Origin: a virus
Length of the DNA: 52,761 nt
Strand: one strand, 5' to 3'
Virus record (IMG/VR): IMGVR_UViG_3300014492_000001
Location: 1-52,761 of that record
Under the pieces are notes generated by a model, which saw nothing but the letters and a program-made list of their open reading frames with translations, was not told the DNA's origin and did not search any database. How positions within the stretch are numbered: the first letter of the stretch is position 1; the number at the start of each line of letters is the position of its first letter. Below are positions 1,984 through 32,758 of the stretch, piece after piece. Made by a program: the position numbers and the translations under genes.

Positions 1984-3183
1984 ATGGCAGCGAATTTAAC
2001 CACTATCGGTTCACAGCTTACCCCAGGTACTCCGACGGAGATCACGTTTGCTCCAAACACTTCCCCGCCTGCTGCCGTAAACGCAGTTGTACTTATCGGT
2101 CGTCAATCCGCAAGTGCTGGCTCTGCCTCTGGAGCTAACTACGTACCAGTTCAAATCTCGAACGTAGCTGATCCAATTGCTTGCTCAGGTGAAGTCGCTG
2201 GTCTGTTCGGACAGGGCTCTGAAATGGCGAAGATGGTGATTGCAGCCGTTCAAGCAAATCAACTTCAAGGAACAACTTTCCCTCCTCTGACTGCGATCCC
2301 TCTCGCTTCTACGGATACGGATCACGGACAGGCTCTGGTCGCTGTGGATAAACTTCCTGGAATTGCATACGTGGTTTCCCCGTTCGATGCCAATACCCAG
2401 TCCCTCATGAATCCTTTGCTCGCAGAGACTACCGCGATGTCCTTGCCTCAGCGTGTGGATAACGGTCAGTATGGAACGATTGCAATTGCAGCAAATCAAA
2501 GCGCTACGACCTTCTCGTCCCTTACAAAGTACAACACTCCTTATGGTTCCTTTCAGTGGTTGCGTAACTCTGCACCGACTCAATTAAACGGTGAGATCGC
2601 TGCTTCTGTTGCGGCTCAACTCGCTGCGAATGCGGTTCCTTTCAACCCTGTTAAGAACCTTGTTATTCCAAACATTGTAGCTCCGTCCCAAGCGGATCAA
2701 ATCACTGTTGGAGCGGGAATGGATTCGGAAGGGGCTTTGGCTGCAGGTTGGTCCCCGCTCCGGCTTCTTTCGACCGGATCGGTGGCTCAGCTTCGTGCTA
2801 GAACTCTCCGCATCTTCCTCGCAGACGGTGTGACCCCTGTGACTGATTACTTCGACGTGATGGACTTTAACGTCCTGTTCTACTGGAGACAGACTCTAGT
2901 GACTCGTTATAACCAACCAGACTTCGCAAACGCTAAGGCGTCTCAAGGTCCTGGAAGCACGGGCCAGCTTCTTCTTTCGGAAGTCATTCGTCTCGGGTTC
3001 TTGTTTCAGACGAATGGAATGTTTCAAGGAATGGATCAAGCTGCGAAGAGCTTCTTGGTTCAACGAAACGCTACGGATCGCAGCCGCTTCGACGTGCTGA
3101 CTCCTGTAGACGTGATCCCGATCCTTGCAGTGATCGCAACCAATATTCAAGCCACTGCGGCTTACGACACCATTACTGTTTAA
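1984..3183 (+). CDS. Contractile tail sheath protein (Mu gpL type)
   Basis: The 399-residue product has the order expected of sheath proteins: an N-terminal segment (FAPNTSPPAAVNAVVLIGRQ), alanine-rich helical middle parts, and a C-terminal domain with DYFDVMDFNVLFYWRQTLVTRYNQPDF. It polymerises around the tube and shortens during injection, so the phage is a myovirus. At 399 residues it is shorter than Mu gpL (about 495), mostly in the middle. It has a good ribosome binding site (AAGGGAGATTCAA before ATG). The tube gene should follow at once but is separated by an HNH gene. Confidence 0.85.
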   Translation: MAANLTTIGSQLTPGTPTEITFAPNTSPPAAVNAVVLIGRQSASAGSASGANYVPVQISNVADPIACSGEVAGLFGQGSEMAKMVIAAVQANQLQGTTFPPLTAIPLASTDTDHGQALVAVDKLPGIAYVVSPFDANTQSLMNPLLAETTAMSLPQRVDNGQYGTIAIAANQSATTFSSLTKYNTPYGSFQWLRNSAPTQLNGEIAASVAAQLAANAVPFNPVKNLVIPNIVAPSQADQITVGAGMDSEGALAAGWSPLRLLSTGSVAQLRARTLRIFLADGVTPVTDYFDVMDFNVLFYWRQTLVTRYNQPDFANAKASQGPGSTGQLLLSEVIRLGFLFQTNGMFQGMDQAAKSFLVQRNATDRSRFDVLTPVDVIPILAVIATNIQATAAYDTITV

Positions 3184-3188
3184 GGAGA

Positions 3189-3695
3189 TTGATAGTGGTT
3201 TGTAATAGGTGCAGTTCAGATAAGCCAGAATCTAATTTTGGAACCTATTCAAACGGTAATGGTAAAGGTCGTATTTACACAAGAAAACAATGTCTTAAGT
3301 GCAGAACGGCCTTTAGGAATAAAGAAAAAAATTCGGAATGCTCTCTAAGATGTTGGAGGAAAAAGTTCTCTAAAAATAAAGAAGCTTGGAACTCGAAGGT
3401 AAGGGAATACAGATTAAAAAGAAAGCTATCTGGAAACCCAATCAAGAGAAACTGTGCTTCTGATAAATACAGGTCTAACTCTAGGATTAATATTTTTTTT
3501 CGGGCAGAGGTTAGAAGAATTTATGGAACGATTTGCTCTTACTGCTTCTTAGAGGCAAAAACCATAGATCATGTGGTCCCGTTAAATAAAGGCGGGTTAA
3601 ATGAGATTGAAAATCTCGTTCCAGCCTGTAACTCTTGTAATAGTTCAAAACAAGACCAGCACTTGACTTTTTGGCTGGCACGAAAGGCTGGGTAA
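3189..3695 (+). CDS. HNH homing endonuclease inserted between sheath and tube genes
   Basis: The 168-residue product starts with a zinc-finger pair (CNRCSSDKPESNFG...CLKC), has a basic central region, and ends with a typical HNH core: CSYC, then TIDHVVPLNKGG (catalytic DH), then NLVPACNSCNSSK. It cuts DNA and probably spreads itself by homing. The start is TTG 3189 or GTG 3195; AAGGAGA upstream is probably the tube gene's original ribosome binding site. The gene is clearly more A/T-rich than its neighbours. Its stop codon overlaps the first codons of the tube gene in another frame, so almost nothing lies between the ORF and the interrupted gene. Confidence 0.85.
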   Translation: MIVVCNRCSSDKPESNFGTYSNGNGKGRIYTRKQCLKCRTAFRNKEKNSECSLRCWRKKFSKNKEAWNSKVREYRLKRKLSGNPIKRNCASDKYRSNSRINIFFRAEVRRIYGTICSYCFLEAKTIDHVVPLNKGGLNEIENLVPACNSCNSSKQDQHLTFWLARKAG

Positions 3696-4116
3696 CTATA
3701 CGGCGACTAAATACGCGGATCGCGCTTTTCTGAGTGTAAACGGTGCAAAGATCGCTGATCTTCAAAGCGCTACAATGAACCTGAACTACAACGCCAAGGC
3801 GGTTCCGAATATGACCCCAGACGGTTTTAATACTGGGTTCGTTCAAGGAAACTTAGATTGTGATATCGACTTTGAAATCGCAGTCGAGAATCTCAATGCC
3901 ACCCCGAAAATCGAAGAGCTTCCCTTCGATACGGCAGATGTCGCATTGAACTTCGTTTGCGGAGCTGACCAGTACATCTGTAGCGGTCTTTTCTGTAAAA
4001 CCATGAAAGAAGCAGCTTCTGGCATCGGTCAGGAAGCTAAAAAGAATTGGACCTTCGGGGCCCTAAAGGCAACAGATGCCGTGGGTAACTCCGTCTTGTT
4101 CAATTTAAGCCTGTAG
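3688..4116 (+). CDS. Tail tube protein (Mu gpM type) with its normal start removed
   Basis: From the ATG at 3775 the product is 113 aa. The same frame continues upstream and encodes GNYTATKYADRAFLSVNG and AKIADLQSATMNLN, which matches the N-terminal strand pattern of Mu-like tube proteins (Mu gpM has AFIRVNGMELESMEGASF). The native protein is therefore about 142 aa. In this frame there is no ATG, GTG or TTG between a TGA at 3664 and the ATG at 3775; CTG 3688 is the only start-like codon next to the conserved part. The start codon seems to have been displaced by the HNH gene. Expression could use CTG, a +1 shift at the HNH stop (GGG TAA C), or splicing. The start given here is a best guess. 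Confidence 0.7.
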   Translation: MGNYTATKYADRAFLSVNGAKIADLQSATMNLNYNAKAVPNMTPDGFNTGFVQGNLDCDIDFEIAVENLNATPKIEELPFDTADVALNFVCGADQYICSGLFCKTMKEAASGIGQEAKKNWTFGALKATDAVGNSVLFNLSL

Positions 4117-4123
4117 GTAGAAA

Positions 4124-4648
4124 ATGAAACCAACCCCGAATGAGTTTCCAAACCTTGCCCTAATCCGTCAGGGCGTAGATTACCGTTTTAAAGTAAAGCT
4201 GCGCGCTAAAGAACTAGAGATGCGCCCGCTCTCGGTCTCTGAAGAGGATCAGATAACCCAAGAAGTGGTTACCGAGATGGCTCGTCTCCCAGAGATTCAG
4301 AGGACTAGCTTAAGGCAGTCTCTTCTTCTCTCGATTAAGAAGCTGGAAAAGGCTCAGACCTCCGCTCCAGGCGAATATGATCCTGAAATATTTGCAGCGG
4401 AATTAAACCAGCTCACGCCTGGCGAGATTGAGTTTATCTTTAAAGAGTGGAATGCGGGTAACGACAAGCTAAATCCTATTCTCGACAAGATGCCGGTCAA
4501 AGACGTTGAGCTATGGGTCGAAGGATTAAAAAAAAATTCCAGCGACAGGGAGATGACCTTGATCGGATTATCTTTCTTTCAATTGGTAAATATCTGTCAC
4601 CACTTGCTAGCCCAGGAAGAATTACAAGCGGACAAATTACCTGGCTGA
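4124..4648 (+). CDS. Tail assembly chaperone, zero-frame product (lambda gpG / Mu gp41 role)
   Basis: The 174-residue soluble, charged protein lies between tube and tape-measure genes, the fixed position of tail chaperones in nearly all long-tailed phages. The central part (MRPLSVSEEDQITQEVVTEMARLP) resembles the Mu gp41-type proteins. Near its end the gene carries a run of nine A residues read as TTA AAA AAA AAT, a slippery site feeding a -1 overlapping frame. The chaperone binds the tape measure protein before the tube forms and is absent from finished virions in well-studied phages. Confidence 0.7.
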   Translation: MKPTPNEFPNLALIRQGVDYRFKVKLRAKELEMRPLSVSEEDQITQEVVTEMARLPEIQRTSLRQSLLLSIKKLEKAQTSAPGEYDPEIFAAELNQLTPGEIEFIFKEWNAGNDKLNPILDKMPVKDVELWVEGLKKNSSDREMTLIGLSFFQLVNICHHLLAQEELQADKLPG

Positions 4649-4701
4649 CGATTCATCAACTTGTTTCTGGTGAGCGCAGCCTTATAGGAAACGGAAGATA
4701 G
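4124..4701 (+). CDS. Tail assembly chaperone, -1 frameshift fusion (lambda gpGT analogue)
   Basis: If ribosomes slip back one base on A AAA AAA (4528-4534), they enter the -1 frame, which is open to a TAG at 4699-4701 and adds 55 residues (KFQRQGDDLDRIIFLSIGKY... onward), giving about 192 aa instead of 174. The -1 frame ends just before the tape-measure start at 4705, the same geometry as lambda G/GT and P2 E/E'. The extension normally contacts the tube subunit. The shift itself is inferred from layout and slippery sequence. Confidence 0.65.
4528..4534 (+). other. Programmed -1 ribosomal frameshift site
   Basis: The heptamer A AAA AAA lies inside a nine-A run (4528-4536), in phase with the chaperone frame (TTA AAA AAA AAT). 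Both tRNAs can re-pair after a one-base backward slip. The downstream GACAGGGAGATGACC may act as a pausing element, but no strong pseudoknot was evident by eye. Confidence 0.65.
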
Positions 4702-9402: not shown

Positions 9403-9676
9403 CGCAACAAGACTAAATGCTAATCGTTTCACTTCCATCTACGCCGACCTTCAGGCTCAGTTCCCAATTCCAGGCGGTCTTCTCGCGGCGGAACAAGCGC
9501 AGTGTACTGCGGACCAACAGAAGCTCGCTCACGCAATCGCAGACAATGAGGGCTCCGACGTAGTTACTGAGTTTGTCGACAACGGAACAGTTCCTGCCGG
9601 AATTGCCCTAGACGTTACCTCTGGCCCTGGCGCCGGAAGCACTGGAAATACCGTAGCCCCTGGGGGGATTTTATGA
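9392..9676 (+). CDS. Small baseplate-region protein of unknown role
   Basis: This 94-residue protein (MALSATRLNANRFTSIYADLQ...) has a helical N-terminal half and a glycine/serine/proline-rich end. A strong ribosome binding site (AGAGGGGG) precedes it inside the end of the spike gene. Proteins starting ALSxxRLxAN are common in baseplate clusters of uncultured Mu-like phages, but I know of no assigned function. It may be a spike accessory or tip partner. Confidence 0.6.
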   Translation: MALSATRLNANRFTSIYADLQAQFPIPGGLLAAEQAQCTADQQKLAHAIADNEGSDVVTEFVDNGTVPAGIALDVTSGPGAGSTGNTVAPGGIL

Positions 9677-10041
9677 GCTCTTGGAATTTGAACCCAGCTA
9701 CCGGCGATTACATCATGGTAAACGGGGCGCCTCAGCCAACGGAATCACTAACCATTCCATGTTATTACAGGATTAAGATTCCTAGAAAGCAATGGATGTA
9801 CGCACCAAATACCAGCTACGGTTCTGACTTAAATACGATTAAAAAGAAAACGGGAACCGCTTCACTTAAGATGATTGAGGCCGCATGCCAGCCGATCGTA
9901 ACAGATGGCCGTGCTTCTTCTGTTTCCGCTTCTTACCAAAACGTGCAACCATCTTCTCGAAATAGCGGAGCGGTTCAGGTCGCGATCGTAGATGCGCAGG
10001 GTACGCCCCAAAATCTTAACCTTCCTCCGGTAGGAGACTAA
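9673..10041 (+). CDS. Baseplate wedge protein, gpW/Mu gp46-like
   Basis: The 122-residue product begins MSSWNLNPATGDYIMVNGAPQ, close to the LxxxxGD(x)xxxxG opening of Mu gp46 and P2 gpW relatives, and lies directly before the gp47/gpJ wedge gene. The middle contains KQWMYAPNTSYGSDLNTIKK, as in gp46-type proteins (G.dl...). It should join gp47 to the hub. The overlap with the preceding gene is 4 bp (ATGA). Confidence 0.7.
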   Translation: MSSWNLNPATGDYIMVNGAPQPTESLTIPCYYRIKIPRKQWMYAPNTSYGSDLNTIKKKTGTASLKMIEAACQPIVTDGRASSVSASYQNVQPSSRNSGAVQVAIVDAQGTPQNLNLPPVGD

Positions 10042-15095: not shown

Positions 15096-17129
15096 ATGAA
15101 ACTAATCTCCCTGATCTCAATCTTCGCCCTTCTGGCTTCGAACGCTTTCGCGGTCTCCAAGATCCAACAACAAGATATTACGACTCACGCGATTTGCTCG
15201 GCTGCAGGTGCGACCGACGCGAACTGTCTTCCTCTGGATTCTCAGGTTTATGTGGGAGCCTTAGGGATCAACCAAACTTTAAATTCCGCGATCACGGCTG
15301 GTCTCATCGGCGGATCGGGCGGCGGCGGTGTTCAGCTCCTCTCGAACGCTAGCTTTGAAAACGGAACCGCTGCGACGGGTTGGACTTTCACCACGATTAC
15401 GGGCTCTGCCAATACAACTTCCGTCTCGGCTGGAAAACAGTCTGAAGATCTGACTTATTCTTCTTCGACGGGGAGCATCGCTCAGAGCGTAACTCCGACT
15501 CCGATCAGTACCTTGAACATCCCCATGGAAGCGTCTTGTAAGGTCAAGACGACCGTTGGAGTGGCTGAAGTTTGTGCTTTGGTGAACGGCGTGAAGAGCG
15601 GATGTACTGCGGCTTCGGCCTCTGGTGCTTTCACTTATGTTCCTGTTAATTTTCAAGGTCCTACAGATGGAACCACCATCGGCGTGATGGTCGATGTGAC
15701 CAGCTCGACTTCTGGAATCGTAACGATCGATGATTGCTACGTGGGTCCAGCTCGAAATGGGGGAAGCGTTCAGCAGGCTCAGCTCGTAGGCGGGGTAACG
15801 ATCACGGGTTGCGCTTCAGGTTGGACTACGACCGGCACTTCTTATGCCGATTTTTCTACGGTTTCTGGTTGCACTTATACTCCTTTCGGTTCTGCCGTTG
15901 CTCCATCAACCAATCTTCCTGCCGTAAAGTTTCCTTCTCTCGGTGCCGGAAACTATGTCATCCAATATGAGGGGCAGTATCGTATCAACGGATCGTCTAC
16001 TGACACGGCTTATGTTCAGTTTTGGGACGGAACGAATACTGCGATTGAAAATTCGCAGGTTATTACAAATGCAAACTTCGTGGGTGTTCCTGGAATTAAC
16101 CAGTCGATTACCTACGCTTCCGCTCAAAGTAACGTAACTTTATCCCTTCGCGGAAAAGTTTCGACAGGCACGGTGACTGCCTCCATTTATGGGACCAACA
16201 CGTTCCCAGGCGTAATTAAGGTTTATTATTTTCCAACTCAATCTCAGCAAGCCTACAACCCTTCTCAGAACCCAGCGAGCTGGAGCGGAGTTCATCAGAA
16301 CTGCACAAACTGGGCGTTCACAAGCTCTACTTACGCTGATCCTGGAAACCCATCAAGCGGATCTTGCGCGTTAGTGCAAAGAACGAATAGAAATTTTGGA
16401 ACAGTAACTGGATACGTTGCTACCTCTGGCTCTACCGCCTTACCTGGGATTGTTTTTAATCCTCCAAGAACTGGAAGGTACTTAGTTACGGCGTCAACAG
16501 CCCTAGAGAGCGCAGCGGCATCTTCTTCCGGAGCTGTGTTAACGGACGGATCGGGTAATATTCTTTCCGGCTCCTCTAGAACGGGGGGGTCTGTCGGAGC
16601 TGTTTCTGCCTCGGTTTCTCTAATCGCATATTTGGATGTCACGACGACATCAAGTCCTTACACCGTAAAAATTCAAGTCGCGACTACGGGTGGAACCGGG
16701 TTCATATCCGATACTAATTTTACCAATCAGACTAACGTAGAGTGGGCCATTACTGAGCTAGATGCCCCCCAGTCGATGCCATTCCTTCAGGGAAACGTGA
16801 CTAGTAATACCCAGGGTTCAGAGCATATTGAGCGGGCTTCGATCGCTACTTCGTGCACCTCTACCCCTTGCACGATTACGAGTCAGTCCGGTTCTTGGTT
16901 GACATCTGTTAGTCGCGCATCAGCCGGAACTTACACGATGAACATTCTTTCTGGAGAGTTCTCTGCGACTCCAACATGCACGGTGGTCAATGGGGACGGG
17001 AACAACGTGGCTTATGGAGTGATCCAGGCGTCGGCTACATCTACGTCGGTTCCTTTCGATTCCTACGCCTCTTCTTCGAGCACGCTAACTGATTCTCGCT
17101 TTAATATTATCTGCATGGGAAGTCATTGA
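15096..17129 (+). CDS. Large secreted beta-rich fibre-like protein
   Basis: The 677-residue product opens with MKLISLISIFALLASNAFA, a Sec signal nearly identical at its start to the previous gene's. Residues about 80-220 (LLSNASFENGTAATGWTFTT to TIDDCYVGP) resemble a carbohydrate-binding-module fold often found in structural or surface proteins (SNxSFExG...GWTxT...VxIDD). The remainder has repeated C-containing beta segments (GWTTTGTSYADFS; AFTSSTYADPG) and at least a dozen cysteines, which suits an oxidising compartment. Function unknown; probably adhesin-like. Confidence 0.7.
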   Translation: MKLISLISIFALLASNAFAVSKIQQQDITTHAICSAAGATDANCLPLDSQVYVGALGINQTLNSAITAGLIGGSGGGGVQLLSNASFENGTAATGWTFTTITGSANTTSVSAGKQSEDLTYSSSTGSIAQSVTPTPISTLNIPMEASCKVKTTVGVAEVCALVNGVKSGCTAASASGAFTYVPVNFQGPTDGTTIGVMVDVTSSTSGIVTIDDCYVGPARNGGSVQQAQLVGGVTITGCASGWTTTGTSYADFSTVSGCTYTPFGSAVAPSTNLPAVKFPSLGAGNYVIQYEGQYRINGSSTDTAYVQFWDGTNTAIENSQVITNANFVGVPGINQSITYASAQSNVTLSLRGKVSTGTVTASIYGTNTFPGVIKVYYFPTQSQQAYNPSQNPASWSGVHQNCTNWAFTSSTYADPGNPSSGSCALVQRTNRNFGTVTGYVATSGSTALPGIVFNPPRTGRYLVTASTALESAAASSSGAVLTDGSGNILSGSSRTGGSVGAVSASVSLIAYLDVTTTSSPYTVKIQVATTGGTGFISDTNFTNQTNVEWAITELDAPQSMPFLQGNVTSNTQGSEHIERASIATSCTSTPCTITSQSGSWLTSVSRASAGTYTMNILSGEFSATPTCTVVNGDGNNVAYGVIQASATSTSVPFDSYASSSSTLTDSRFNIICMGSH

Positions 17130-17473
17130 TGAAACAGGTGAGACCGAGAACCATTGACGGATATAGAGAGAAGCTTAATCAGCTTTCTGTTTCTAGTAGC
17201 AATGGTTGCGTAGAGTTTTCTGGACAAAGAAACAAAAAAGGATATGGGAAAATTAAGTTCTTTCGCCGCGATGTCCGAGCACATCGTCTCGCATACGAGT
17301 TAAAGTTCGGCCCAATCCCCGAGGGTTTGTATGTCCTTCACCGGTGCGACAATCCGCCATGCATAAACGTAAATCATCTTTTTCTAGGAACCGCTAGGGC
17401 TAACGCCGTTGACCGAATGCTAAAGGGTCGCGGAAATAATCAATACACCGTGGTCCTCACTAAGGAGGTCTGA
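17129..17473 (+). CDS. HNH endonuclease (HNH_3 type), free-standing
   Basis: The 114-residue product has the paired motif of this family: GYGKIKFFRRDVRAHRLAYE followed by VLHRCDNPPCINVNHLFLGT, where LHxCDNPxCxNxxHL is the zinc/HNH core. It is paralogous to the genes at 22700 and 29215. The ATG at 17129 overlaps the fibre stop (TGATG); an in-frame TTG lies one codon upstream. It sits between tail and lysis genes without visibly breaking either. Its C-terminus lacks the second zinc ribbon of the other two. Confidence 0.8.
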   Translation: MKQVRPRTIDGYREKLNQLSVSSSNGCVEFSGQRNKKGYGKIKFFRRDVRAHRLAYELKFGPIPEGLYVLHRCDNPPCINVNHLFLGTARANAVDRMLKGRGNNQYTVVLTKEV

Positions 17474-22085: not shown

Positions 22086-22727
22086 ATGATTCGTGAGCAG
22101 CTTGCGGGAAAGCATATAAGGGGTTCTGGCTGCGAAATAGGCGGTTTGCACGTTCCCACCAAGGTTTTACCTGGGGCCAAAGTGACCTACGTTGACAGAC
22201 TCCCCCCTGGAGAGGCCCACCCAGACGTACAAACCAGGGTTCACGATCTCGTAGTGGACGACGCTGAATTTCTAACCCACTTTCATAACGACACTCTCGA
22301 CTTCGTAATTGCTAACCACGTACTGGAGCACTGCCACGATCCGATTGGAACGTTGAAGAATTGGTGCCGAGTCCTTAAGCCAGGAGGGATTGTTTACTGC
22401 GCTCTCCCTGATAAAGAACAGACCTTTGATAAGCCGAGGGCCACCACTACTTTGCTCCACCTGATTGACGACCATGAAAACGGTTCTGGGCGAGGAGACA
22501 TAATTCATCTTTCAGAATGGCACTATCATATTGATGGTTTGCGTGGCCAAGCCCTTGAGGACCGGGTGAAATTCGGTTTGGATTCGAGGTCAAATATTCA
22601 CTTTCATTTATGGGACGAAGAGGGCATGCAATTGCTGTTTAATTACGTGGGTAAAGAGCTTGAGATTTTAGAAAAAAAACGTAACGGAGCAGAAATAATA
22701 TGGGTTCTAAGAAAAATTCCCGCTTAA
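22086..22727 (+). CDS. Class I SAM-dependent methyltransferase
   Basis: The 213-residue protein has a Rossmann-type methyltransferase core: GSGCEIGGLHVPTKVLPG (motif I, acidic EIG), FVIANHVLEHCHDPIGTLKNW (motif IV region with the NHVLEH signature) and VLKPGGIVYCALPD. This type methylates small molecules, sugars or lipids, not DNA. Neighbouring sugar enzymes suggest a glycan substrate. The gene's last 28 bp overlap an HNH gene. Confidence 0.8.
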   Translation: MIREQLAGKHIRGSGCEIGGLHVPTKVLPGAKVTYVDRLPPGEAHPDVQTRVHDLVVDDAEFLTHFHNDTLDFVIANHVLEHCHDPIGTLKNWCRVLKPGGIVYCALPDKEQTFDKPRATTTLLHLIDDHENGSGRGDIIHLSEWHYHIDGLRGQALEDRVKFGLDSRSNIHFHLWDEEGMQLLFNYVGKELEILEKKRNGAEIIWVLRKIPA

Positions 22728-23152
22728 AGTGGCCAACTAATTATCGGATCTCTTCTTCTGGTTGTTGGATCTATCTTGGTTGCAAAAAAGAAAACGGCAA
22801 AGGATACGGGGTGATAAGCACCGGGGAGCATGCCCATCGAGCGTTTTACGCTCTCCATAAGGGCGAAATTCCAAAGACCCTTTGGGTTCTCCATCGCTGC
22901 GACAACCCTCCGTGCGTTAATCCGGACCATCTGTTCTTGGGAACCCATAAGGATAACATGCGCGACATGGCTGAAAAAAACCGAGCCTGGAATCCAAAAG
23001 CCAAAGCTCTTAAAAGCCAGACCTCTTGTAAAAACGGACATCCTTTTGACGAAAAGAACACCTACTACAGAAAAGACAGGCCTGAAAAAATGGGCAGGAT
23101 TTGCAAAGCTTGCCGAGGCATTAGGCTCAAAGTTTACGCAGAAAAGAGGTGA
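22700..23152 (+). CDS. HNH endonuclease (HNH_3 type) with C-terminal zinc ribbon
   Basis: The 150-residue protein has GCWIYLGCKKENGKGYGVI, the HNH core VLHRCDNPPCVNPDHLFLGT, and a second Cys module (CKNGHPFDEKNTYYRK...ICKACRG) shared with the gene at 29215. It starts inside the end of the methyltransferase gene and overlaps the next gene's alternative start by 4 bp. It is probably a free-standing homing endonuclease. Confidence 0.85.
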   Translation: MGSKKNSRLKWPTNYRISSSGCWIYLGCKKENGKGYGVISTGEHAHRAFYALHKGEIPKTLWVLHRCDNPPCVNPDHLFLGTHKDNMRDMAEKNRAWNPKAKALKSQTSCKNGHPFDEKNTYYRKDRPEKMGRICKACRGIRLKVYAEKR

Positions 23153-23712: not shown

Positions 23713-24703
23713 TTATGGAATTCCCTATATGGGGTCGAAGGATTCTCTGATTCAAAAAATAGGGCACCTTTTCCCTGCTGCTGAAAACTTTTACGATTTG
23801 TTTGGTGGCGGTTTTTCGGTCTCTCATTTTATGCTTTTGCATAAGTCTGAAAAATATAACCGTTTTTTTTACAACGAAATAAAAGCTGACATCGTTCGGC
23901 TGGTTTCGGACGCCATCGCTGGGAAGTACAATTACGATGTGTTTAAACCTAAGTGGATCAGTAGAGAAGACTTCGAGAGAAACAAGACCAATTGTGCTTA
24001 TACTCGTTGCATCTGGTCATTTGGAAATAACCAAAAAAGCTATCTTTTCAGCGCTGAAAACGAGACGAACAAAAAATCACTTCACAATGCGGTTGTTTTT
24101 AATGAATTTGATTCGCTCGCCGAAGATCTTTTAAAGATAACTTCTTTTCCTGGGCATCTGTCTATTCGTGGCAGAAGGCTAATGTGCCGGTCTATTGTTT
24201 GCGACCGCAAGGGTGAGTTAGAGCAGTTAGAGCGGTTAGAGCGGTTAGAGCGGTTACAGCAGTTACAGCAGTTAGAGCGGTTAGAGCGGTTACAGCAGTT
24301 ACAGCAGTTAGAGCGGTTAGAGCGGTTACAGCAGTTAGAGCAGTTAGAGCAGTTAGAGCAGTTAGAGCGGTTAGAGCTTTCTAGTAAAAGCTACGAGTCC
24401 ATAACAATTTTGCCGCGTTCGGTGGTTTACTGTGACCCGCCCTATAAGGGAACTGCCGGTTATATCGATTCGTTTGATCATGATATTTTTTGGGACTGGG
24501 TGAGGAATCAAAGTGAGCCCGTTTTCGTATCGGAATATAACGCCCCCAAAGACATCCGTGTCCTGGCGGCATTTAACCATAAAAAATCATTATCTGGTTT
24601 AGGGAGCTCGACTGGCTCGGTGGAAAAGCTATACATTAACGCCGCAGCGGAGTCCATCCTTGCCGAATCAAAAATCATCGCCGCTCAACCAGTCTTGCGG
24701 TAA
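23705..24703 (+). CDS. DNA adenine methylase (D12 class) with a Leu-rich repeat insertion
   Basis: The 332-residue protein starts with the Dam signature YMGSKDSLIQKI, motif I is DLFGGGFSVS (31-40), and the catalytic DPPY lies at about 243-246 (YCDPPYKGTAGY). It transfers methyl from SAM to adenine N6. Between the target recognition region and DPPY, residues 172-225 are an 18-fold L-E/Q-R/Q repeat absent from ordinary Dam proteins. All methylase motifs remain intact, so activity is plausible. It may protect phage DNA from restriction. It converges on the repressor gene. Confidence 0.85.
   Translation: MGNYGIPYMGSKDSLIQKIGHLFPAAENFYDLFGGGFSVSHFMLLHKSEKYNRFFYNEIKADIVRLVSDAIAGKYNYDVFKPKWISREDFERNKTNCAYTRCIWSFGNNQKSYLFSAENETNKKSLHNAVVFNEFDSLAEDLLKITSFPGHLSIRGRRLMCRSIVCDRKGELEQLERLERLERLQQLQQLERLERLQQLQQLERLERLQQLEQLEQLEQLERLELSSKSYESITILPRSVVYCDPPYKGTAGYIDSFDHDIFWDWVRNQSEPVFVSEYNAPKDIRVLAAFNHKKSLSGLGSSTGSVEKLYINAAAESILAESKIIAAQPVLR
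24218..24379 (+). repeat. Tandem 9-bp repeat, 18 copies, inside the methylase gene
   Basis: Units are TTAGAGCGG, TTACAGCAG and TTAGAGCAG (LER, LQQ, LEQ), with a higher-order LER LER LQQ LQQ pattern of 36 bp repeated. Every unit is in frame, so copy-number change alters length without breaking the gene. The near-identity of units points to recent slippage. Confidence 0.95.
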
Positions 24704-31190: not shown

Positions 31191-31562
31191 ATGGGAAGAG
31201 CGTCAAAAGAACAAGCCGGAGTCTATGCTTGCCCAAAACGAGGAAGAAATCGCCGCCCAAAGAAAACGAAACAGGAGCGCGACGATCAGCGCAGCGAAAA
31301 GCTTGTTCTGGAAAGAGCTAGGAAAGGGGTCTGTGCTGCGTGCGGCAAAATTGGCGGTCTTGATCCTGATCACCAAGTTACAAGAGGTGCCGGCGGTGGG
31401 GAGGAGTATTGGAACATTATGCCTTTATGTCGGAAAGAGCATGTACAAAGGCACTCTAAAGGGGTCCTCTGGCTCTCGGAAAAATACCCAGGAGTAAAGG
31501 CTTGGCTAATTCAAAATGGTTGGGAGTTTTGTGATTTACGAAAACGTTGGGTGCATAATTAA
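31191..31562 (+). CDS. HNH nuclease, NinG/YajD-like
   Basis: The 123-residue protein has a basic N-terminus and a clear HNH core: GVCAACGKIGGLDPDHQVTRG, then NIMPLCRKEHVQRHSKG, with zinc cysteines (CAAC...C) and the catalytic DH. Unlike the homing-type HNH proteins here, it resembles recombination or packaging-associated nucleases. A frame from GTG 31147 (MSTMEPDLVESTVKKWEERQ) overlaps it and is probably a short or chance ORF; its 5' 15 codons may be a leader. Confidence 0.75.
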   Translation: MGRASKEQAGVYACPKRGRNRRPKKTKQERDDQRSEKLVLERARKGVCAACGKIGGLDPDHQVTRGAGGGEEYWNIMPLCRKEHVQRHSKGVLWLSEKYPGVKAWLIQNGWEFCDLRKRWVHN

Positions 31563-31862: not shown

Positions 31863-32534
31863 ATGCAAGCACAAGAGCTTAAAAATATTTTAGAGAAACA
31901 TCGCAAATGGGTGATGGGCGAGACCGGCGGCGAGAGGGCGGACCTCCGCTCTGCGGACCTCCGCTCTGCGAACCTCCGCTCTGCGAACCTCCGCTCTGCG
32001 GACCTCAGCTATGCGGACCTCAGCTATGCGGACCTCAGCTATGCGAACCTCAGCTCTGCGGACCTCCGCTCTGCGGACCTCCGCTCTGCGGACCTCAGCT
32101 ATGCGAACCTCAGCTCTGCGGACCTCCGCTATGCGAACCTCCGCTCTGCGGACCTCAAAGAAATTAAAGAGGACTTTTTCAAAGTTCTTTCGATTTCTAA
32201 GAATGAGGTGGTTGGACTTTACGATGCTCTGATGCGCGGAAAGATAGATGGCTCTCAGTATCAAGGGGAGTGTGCGTGTCTCGTTGGAACCGTCGCGAAT
32301 ATTAGAAACGAGAAATACGACAACCTTGGAATTGATCTCAGACCCAATTCGGATCGTCTCGCTGAGAGATGGTTCCTCGGAATATCTAAGGGCGACATTC
32401 CAGCGAATAACGAGGTTTCCCGCGTAACCGTGTCTTGGGCAGAAGAGTTTATGACTGAGAATGGCCTGTCTGTTCCTCAGTACAAGCTTATTTCTAATCT
32501 TGAGCGTCTGGAACTTTTCAAAACGCATCTTTAA
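31863..32534 (+). CDS. Pentapeptide-repeat protein
   Basis: The 223-residue product has an N-terminal helix ([19 protein letters not shown]), 15 pentapeptides (residues 26-100; [20 protein letters not shown] types with A(D/N)L), and a C-terminal domain ([20 protein letters not shown]...[12 protein letters not shown]). The repeats form a right-handed beta-helix; some members mimic DNA to inhibit gyrase. N- and C-terminal parts resemble a family seen in many uncultured phages. Strong AGGAGG site. Confidence 0.8.
31938..32162 (+). repeat. Tandem 15-bp repeats encoding pentapeptides
   Basis: Fifteen near-identical 15-mers (GCGGACCTCCGCTCT and variants with AAC, AGC, TAT) make up the region. Units differ in only one to three bases, so recent expansion or gene conversion is likely. 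Because the unit has no stop in several frames, long open frames appear on both strands. Confidence 0.95.
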
Positions 32535-32548
32535 ACAGGAGGAGTTGA

Positions 32549-32758
32549 ATGAATAGCGAAATAAAAGCCCAAATATCATTTGGTCCAGAAATAACAATTC
32601 ATCTAATTGGTGGACACAGCCCATACATTTGGGTTGGGAGCGATGAAAATAATGGTTTTATTAGCGACCGCTCTATCAGAAAGCTCAAGCGATTTTGTGA
32701 TCATATTTTGGCCAAGAAGAAAAAGAAAACCTCAAAACGTAACCGGGTAGCGGGATAA
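32549..32758 (+). CDS. Small hypothetical protein
   Basis: The 69-residue protein (MNSEIKAQISFGPEITIHLI...RKLKRFCDHILAKKKKKTSK) has a beta-rich start and a basic end. AGGAGG precedes the ATG; the whole 13-base leader AGGAGGAGTTGAA is the same as that before the pentapeptide gene. No family recognised. Confidence 0.6.
   Translation: MNSEIKAQISFGPEITIHLIGGHSPYIWVGSDENNGFISDRSIRKLKRFCDHILAKKKKKTSKRNRVAG

Follow-up and report, generated by a model that had tools for sequence, protein, structure and literature searches.

A free-standing HNH endonuclease gene lies between tail sheath and tail tube genes in a metagenomic phage, ahead of a tube gene that reads ACG where its relatives start

The DNA analysed here, hereafter the window, spans the 52,761 bases of a virus record in IMG/VR; it is a single contig from a contractile-tail phage that is known only from metagenomes. 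The genes and signals that occupy the junction of its tail sheath and tail tube genes are collected in Table 1. The structure that AlphaFold predicts for the tube protein (mean pLDDT 58.7) matches the tail tubes of phages as well as Hcp, and a match to the Pfam family PF18906 (Phage_tube_2) is below the cut-off. The sheath and tube genes have GC contents of 0.51 and 0.475, respectively, and the shifts from and to the lower value of the intervening HNH gene fall near the ends of that gene. The sheath stop codon and the Shine-Dalgarno (SD) sequence that an earlier note on this DNA had described ahead of the HNH frame are indeed present, but the coordinates it gave were off by a few bases: the stop and the SD site overlap within one TAAGGAG.

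Table 1. Features of the sheath-tube junction (positions in the window)
Feature	Position	Strand	Remarks
Tail sheath gene	1984..3183	+	PHROG 165 tail sheath, E 7e-28; 42-47% identity to the sheath of nine relatives
TAAGGAG: sheath stop TAA (3181-3183) overlapping a Shine-Dalgarno site; now precedes the HNH start	3181..3187	+	
Free-standing HNH endonuclease gene (the insert), from GTG to TAA (3693-3695)	3195..3695	+	GC 0.37
Purine-rich HNH 3' end CGAAAGGCTGGG, putative weak SD of the tube (L011 has a similar element)	3681..3692	+	
CTG in the tube frame, rival start codon	3688..3690	+	In frame; SD pairing -3.3 kcal/mol
ACG at the ancestral tube start position	3700..3702	+	Aligned with the starts of 11 relatives
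Tail tube gene	3700..4116	+	52-64% identity to 11 relatives
First ATG of the tube frame, internal	3775..3777	+	Residue 26 of the protein as begun by relatives

The relatives with which this locus is compared come from IMG/VR and were reached through the terminase: this first gave a single relative of 51 kb whose gene order is the same, and alignments built from it then yielded 11 tube relatives. Searches with the tube or the sheath as a single protein, across genome contigs, viral contigs and phage records, returned no close relatives; the tube alignment found none among the genome contigs, and a further scan with it added none to the 11.

The tube frame is open from a TGA at 3664-3666 to the end of the gene, and it contains no ATG, GTG or TTG before 3775, exactly as the earlier note had stated. 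The only start-like near-cognate codons that precede this ATG in the frame are CTG 3688, ACG 3700 and CTG 3730. Homology to the 11 relatives covers the start-less stretch (YADRAF...NGA), beginning well upstream of 3775, and the missing start is therefore more than a matter of chance. Of the window genes with counterparts in the relatives' loci examined, none but the tube was found to have homology extending far ahead of its first canonical start; the other conserved genes showed no damage in comparison with relatives. A second apparently start-less gene, at 9571-10038, proved to be a spurious upstream extension; this candidate was resolved because its relative likewise has an ATG at the corresponding place.

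Evidence as to where the tube once began was derived from its alignment. In all 11 relatives the start falls in the same column, four codons before the Y of YADRAF, and the N-terminus follows the motif M-x-x-x-Y-[AC]-D-R-A; the start codon is ATG in seven of them, TTG in three and GTG in one. The window's codon in this column is the ACG at 3700, which is one transition away from ATG, and on the strength of this alignment we place the ancestral tube start codon at position 3700. Since that is the relatives' start column, the ATG GGT AAC that the earlier note obtained by joining ...GATTGAT to GGGTAAC, and regarded as an ideal recreated start, is not the ancestral one. It would begin ahead of the ancestral start codon, and is most easily explained as a coincidence that arises from where the junction was placed (3193 to 3690). 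For the same reason the ATG at 3775 is internal: it lies 25 codons downstream of 3700, past both the conserved block YADRAF and the first two of the predicted strands, and it has no SD sequence (pairing -0.1 kcal/mol). The earlier note had kept an N-truncated tube from 3775 as an exception to its other routes. Such a protein is unlikely because every relative starts 25 codons upstream, at the 3700 column, and the YADRAF block would be lost.

The gap between sheath and tube measures 10-48 nt in eight of the nine relatives with a sheath, and 516 nt in the window, where the HNH gene fills it; this gene is absent from the sheath-tube junctions of eight relatives. In four of the relatives (L008, L010, L015 and L018), the same overlap of sheath stop and SD site stands ahead of the tube gene. 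In the window, the HNH start lies 7 nt after this old TAAGGAG site, and the anti-SD pairing for GTG 3195 amounts to -9.2 kcal/mol; we take this GTG to be the likely start since the TTG at 3189 overlaps the SD region. The HNH protein matches Pfam PF01844 (E 2.3e-10) and PF14279 (1.6e-8), together with PHROGs 2118, 2214, 8660 and 1035. It aligns over its full length with five phage homologues, among which C114, C117, H126, N140, C145, C148, N149 and K152 are invariant, so that the Cys residues of the Zn site and the HNH residues are intact; an IMG/VR homologue has a similar ending, WLAHQRAA. Judged by these alignments, the insert encodes a complete HNH endonuclease that resembles endonuclease VII in type, with the catalytic motif and flanking Cys pairs that characterize free-standing HNH homing endonucleases. 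A counterpart of the gene elsewhere in the records of three relatives was not found.

The best reading of these comparisons is that an ordinary homing-gene insertion separated the tube from its ribosome-binding site. The earlier note was right to locate the HNH gene in the translation start region of the tube, and the insertion and the loss of a canonical start are both well supported. Other free-standing HNH genes of phages (the T4 mob genes, Aeh1 mobE, and endonuclease VII/HNH genes) likewise stand alone without an intron, sit in an intergenic spacer beside an essential gene, and occur patchily among relatives. The T4 mobA-gene 60 cassette (PMC3014915) provides a further parallel, in that an HNH insertion is tied to non-standard translation of an essential neighbour; there, however, the gene is split and ribosomes bypass 50 nt, whereas the body of the window's tube gene is intact and only its initiation region is affected.

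Another key observation concerns the history of this spacer. In the relative L011 it is 66 nt long and contains an open frame, MVCRKCLGEWSPLRKAGYQ..., that looks like the first and last codons of the HNH gene with the middle deleted (MVCRKC ... RKAG in L011, MVCNRC ... LARKAG in the window). The 20-nt leader of the tube is identical at 15 of 20 positions between the two; the best value among all 1,081 pairs of gene leaders in the window was 12 of 20, and 15 was reached by 2 of 105,484 window 20-mers. Local alignment of the whole L011 remnant with the whole insert was not significant on its own, in contrast to the in-register comparison of the leaders. The L011 tube has a normal TTG start, despite the apparent remnant. 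In L013 and L014, the end of another HNH gene lies directly before the tube (PHROG 99, E 3e-4). Because L011 groups with the insert-less L008 in the sheath tree (83/87), the presence of the HNH gene is patchy. A single site thus holds an intact gene in the window, an apparent remnant in L011, a different HNH gene in L013 and L014, and none in eight relatives, the patchy occurrence that is expected of homing endonucleases. On this distribution, the sheath-tube spacer is a homing-endonuclease hotspot. We also noted that the contigs of L013 and L014 both break off (positions 1-170) inside this upstream HNH gene, as would be expected had a variable insertion interrupted the assembly.

How, then, might the tube be translated? 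The free-standing HNH homing endonuclease gene has entered the short spacer of sheath and tube, between the SD site of the tube and its start codon, and now uses the SD that in relatives belongs to the tube. The tube keeps its start position, 4 nt past the HNH stop, with ACG as the codon there. We hypothesize that ribosomes finishing the HNH gene reinitiate at this ACG or, less probably, at CTG 3688. The purine-rich HNH end CGAAAGGCTGGG may help them to do so: its anti-SD pairing is weak (-7.3 kcal/mol, partly through bulged pairing), and L011 has a comparable element ahead of its TTG start. Stop-start distances of -8 to +10 nt are taken as predictive of reinitiation (PMC10666635), and the +4 nt found here falls within that range. 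With the SD taken by the HNH gene, a start position 4 nt after its stop and some pairing by its end, reinitiation would be a natural route. The spacing resembles that of neighbouring genes linked by termination-reinitiation (PMC10666635, PMC6728339, PMC12548453); those systems differ in having ATG, GTG or TTG as the downstream codon. As to RNA structure, the folds around the start codons of the HNH and tube genes were no better than those of shuffled sequences (z 0.07 to -0.89), and for this reason we claim no regulatory hairpin. That the tube is made by HNH-coupled reinitiation at a near-cognate codon, most probably ACG 3700, is the reading that we tentatively favour, at a little short of an even chance. 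Its strongest form is that a structural gene needed in many copies starts at an ACG which works only through terminating ribosomes delivered by the HNH gene 4 nt upstream, leaving the phage dependent on a selfish gene; this we consider unlikely.

Several considerations weigh against use of the ACG. The tail tube is needed in many copies, and L011, the relative with the apparent remnant, has a normal TTG. Near-cognate starts are very weak in E. coli, and this counts against the ACG: a CUG start operates at 0.86% of AUG (PMC11497404) and AUU at about 0.3% (PMC10666635). A survey of switches from 61,358 ancestral AUG starts lists GUG, UUG, CUG and AUU only, and not ACG (PMC5622118); annotation practice may hide some start switches from that survey. 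In the host of this phage an ACG, if used, may work at low efficiency. A limited literature search found no paper on ACG starts in phages.

Bearing these points in mind, an error in the consensus or a dead allele must be considered a serious alternative to an ACG start. If the contig carries an error or mixes strains, the living phage would have T at 3701, so that its tube would start at 3700 with a regular ATG in coupling with the HNH stop, and only the insertion would be real. This explanation gains from the ACG being a single transition from ATG at exactly the ancestral start column, from ACG starts being nearly unknown, and from there being just one metagenome contig; isolated base errors are rare in assembled contigs, however, and the conserved genes are otherwise undamaged relative to those of relatives. 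We judge it somewhat unlikely, though it has to be taken into account. A dead or crippled allele, in which insertion and start-codon loss silence the tube of a defective phage or decaying prophage, would fit the loss of both the ancestral SD spacing and the canonical start, but the tube, sheath and other conserved genes are intact. Furthermore, the ratio of tube to sheath branch lengths in the window lineage (0.42/0.98 = 0.43) lies within the range of relatives (about 0.15-0.7) and thus gives no indication that selection on the tube has long been relaxed; this comparison is silent on recent change and hence on a recent loss. We hold this second account to be decidedly unlikely.

The remaining alternatives keep the contig as it stands and look elsewhere for a start. 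Initiation at CTG 3688, overlapping the HNH end, would give fMet-GNYTATKYADRAF; CTG surpasses AUU in the E. coli values cited above and is close to the HNH stop, but its SD pairing is meagre (Table 1) and it would add four residues that none of the 11 relatives possesses, which makes it highly improbable. The +1 shift at GGG TAA C raised in the earlier note, which would supply the tube as an HNH-tube fusion, is scarcely tenable. Both frames are open across 3667 to 3692, where slippage could occur on TTT T (3669-3672) or on GGG TAA (3690); on the other hand, an N-terminal fusion of some 166 residues is implausible for a protein packed in stacked rings, the junction has no standout structure (z about -0.3 to -0.4 against shuffles), and no relative offers support, none keeping both frames for comparison. 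RNA splicing or DNA excision of 3194-3689, to which we attach the least credence of all, would indeed produce ATG GGT AAC in frame. The relatives place the start at 3700, however, the resulting SD-ATG spacing would be just 4 nt, and there is no room for a ribozyme because the insert is coding from end to end. The covariance-model search that had been suggested for an intron gave no group I, group II or other intron family from Rfam over 3000-4120 even at E<=10, and none in the whole window at the gathering score; no ribozyme core was detected. The splicing and frameshift readings are thus not supported.

If the ACG is truly used, the tube would provide a natural ACG start in an essential structural gene of a phage, and a case of a selfish homing gene that seizes its neighbour's ribosome-binding site and so makes itself needed. 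Even if it is unused, the locus documents a sheath-tube homing-endonuclease hotspot, in which one genome has the insert intact, another apparently has what a deletion left of it, and a different HNH gene occurs as well.

Some other features of the window deserve mention. Two HNH-like genes, recognized by eye from an LHRCDNPPC motif, abut the next gene: that at 17126-17473 ends AAGGAGGTCTGA, with a GTG start immediately after it (SD pairing -13.2 kcal/mol), and that at 22700-23152 ends AGAGGTGA before ATG 23155. With such endings, both hold the ribosome-binding site of the next gene in their own 3' ends. HNH-like sequence was also judged by eye in the translation of the ORF at 31191-31562. Low-complexity repeats occur at 24200-24500 (LERLQQL-type, within a DNA-methyltransferase-like ORF) and in a minus-strand ORF at 31890-32624 (AEVR). 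Finally, the gene after the tube (4124-4701) shares its 3' part with an ORF in the -1 frame (4510-4698), of which L008 (5839-6075) and L018 have homologues. Positions 4528-4537 form a slippery run that is in frame, A AAA AAA / A AAA AAT, and A AAA AAA is also present in L008 and L010; the arrangement resembles the programmed -1 frameshift by which tail assembly chaperones are made.
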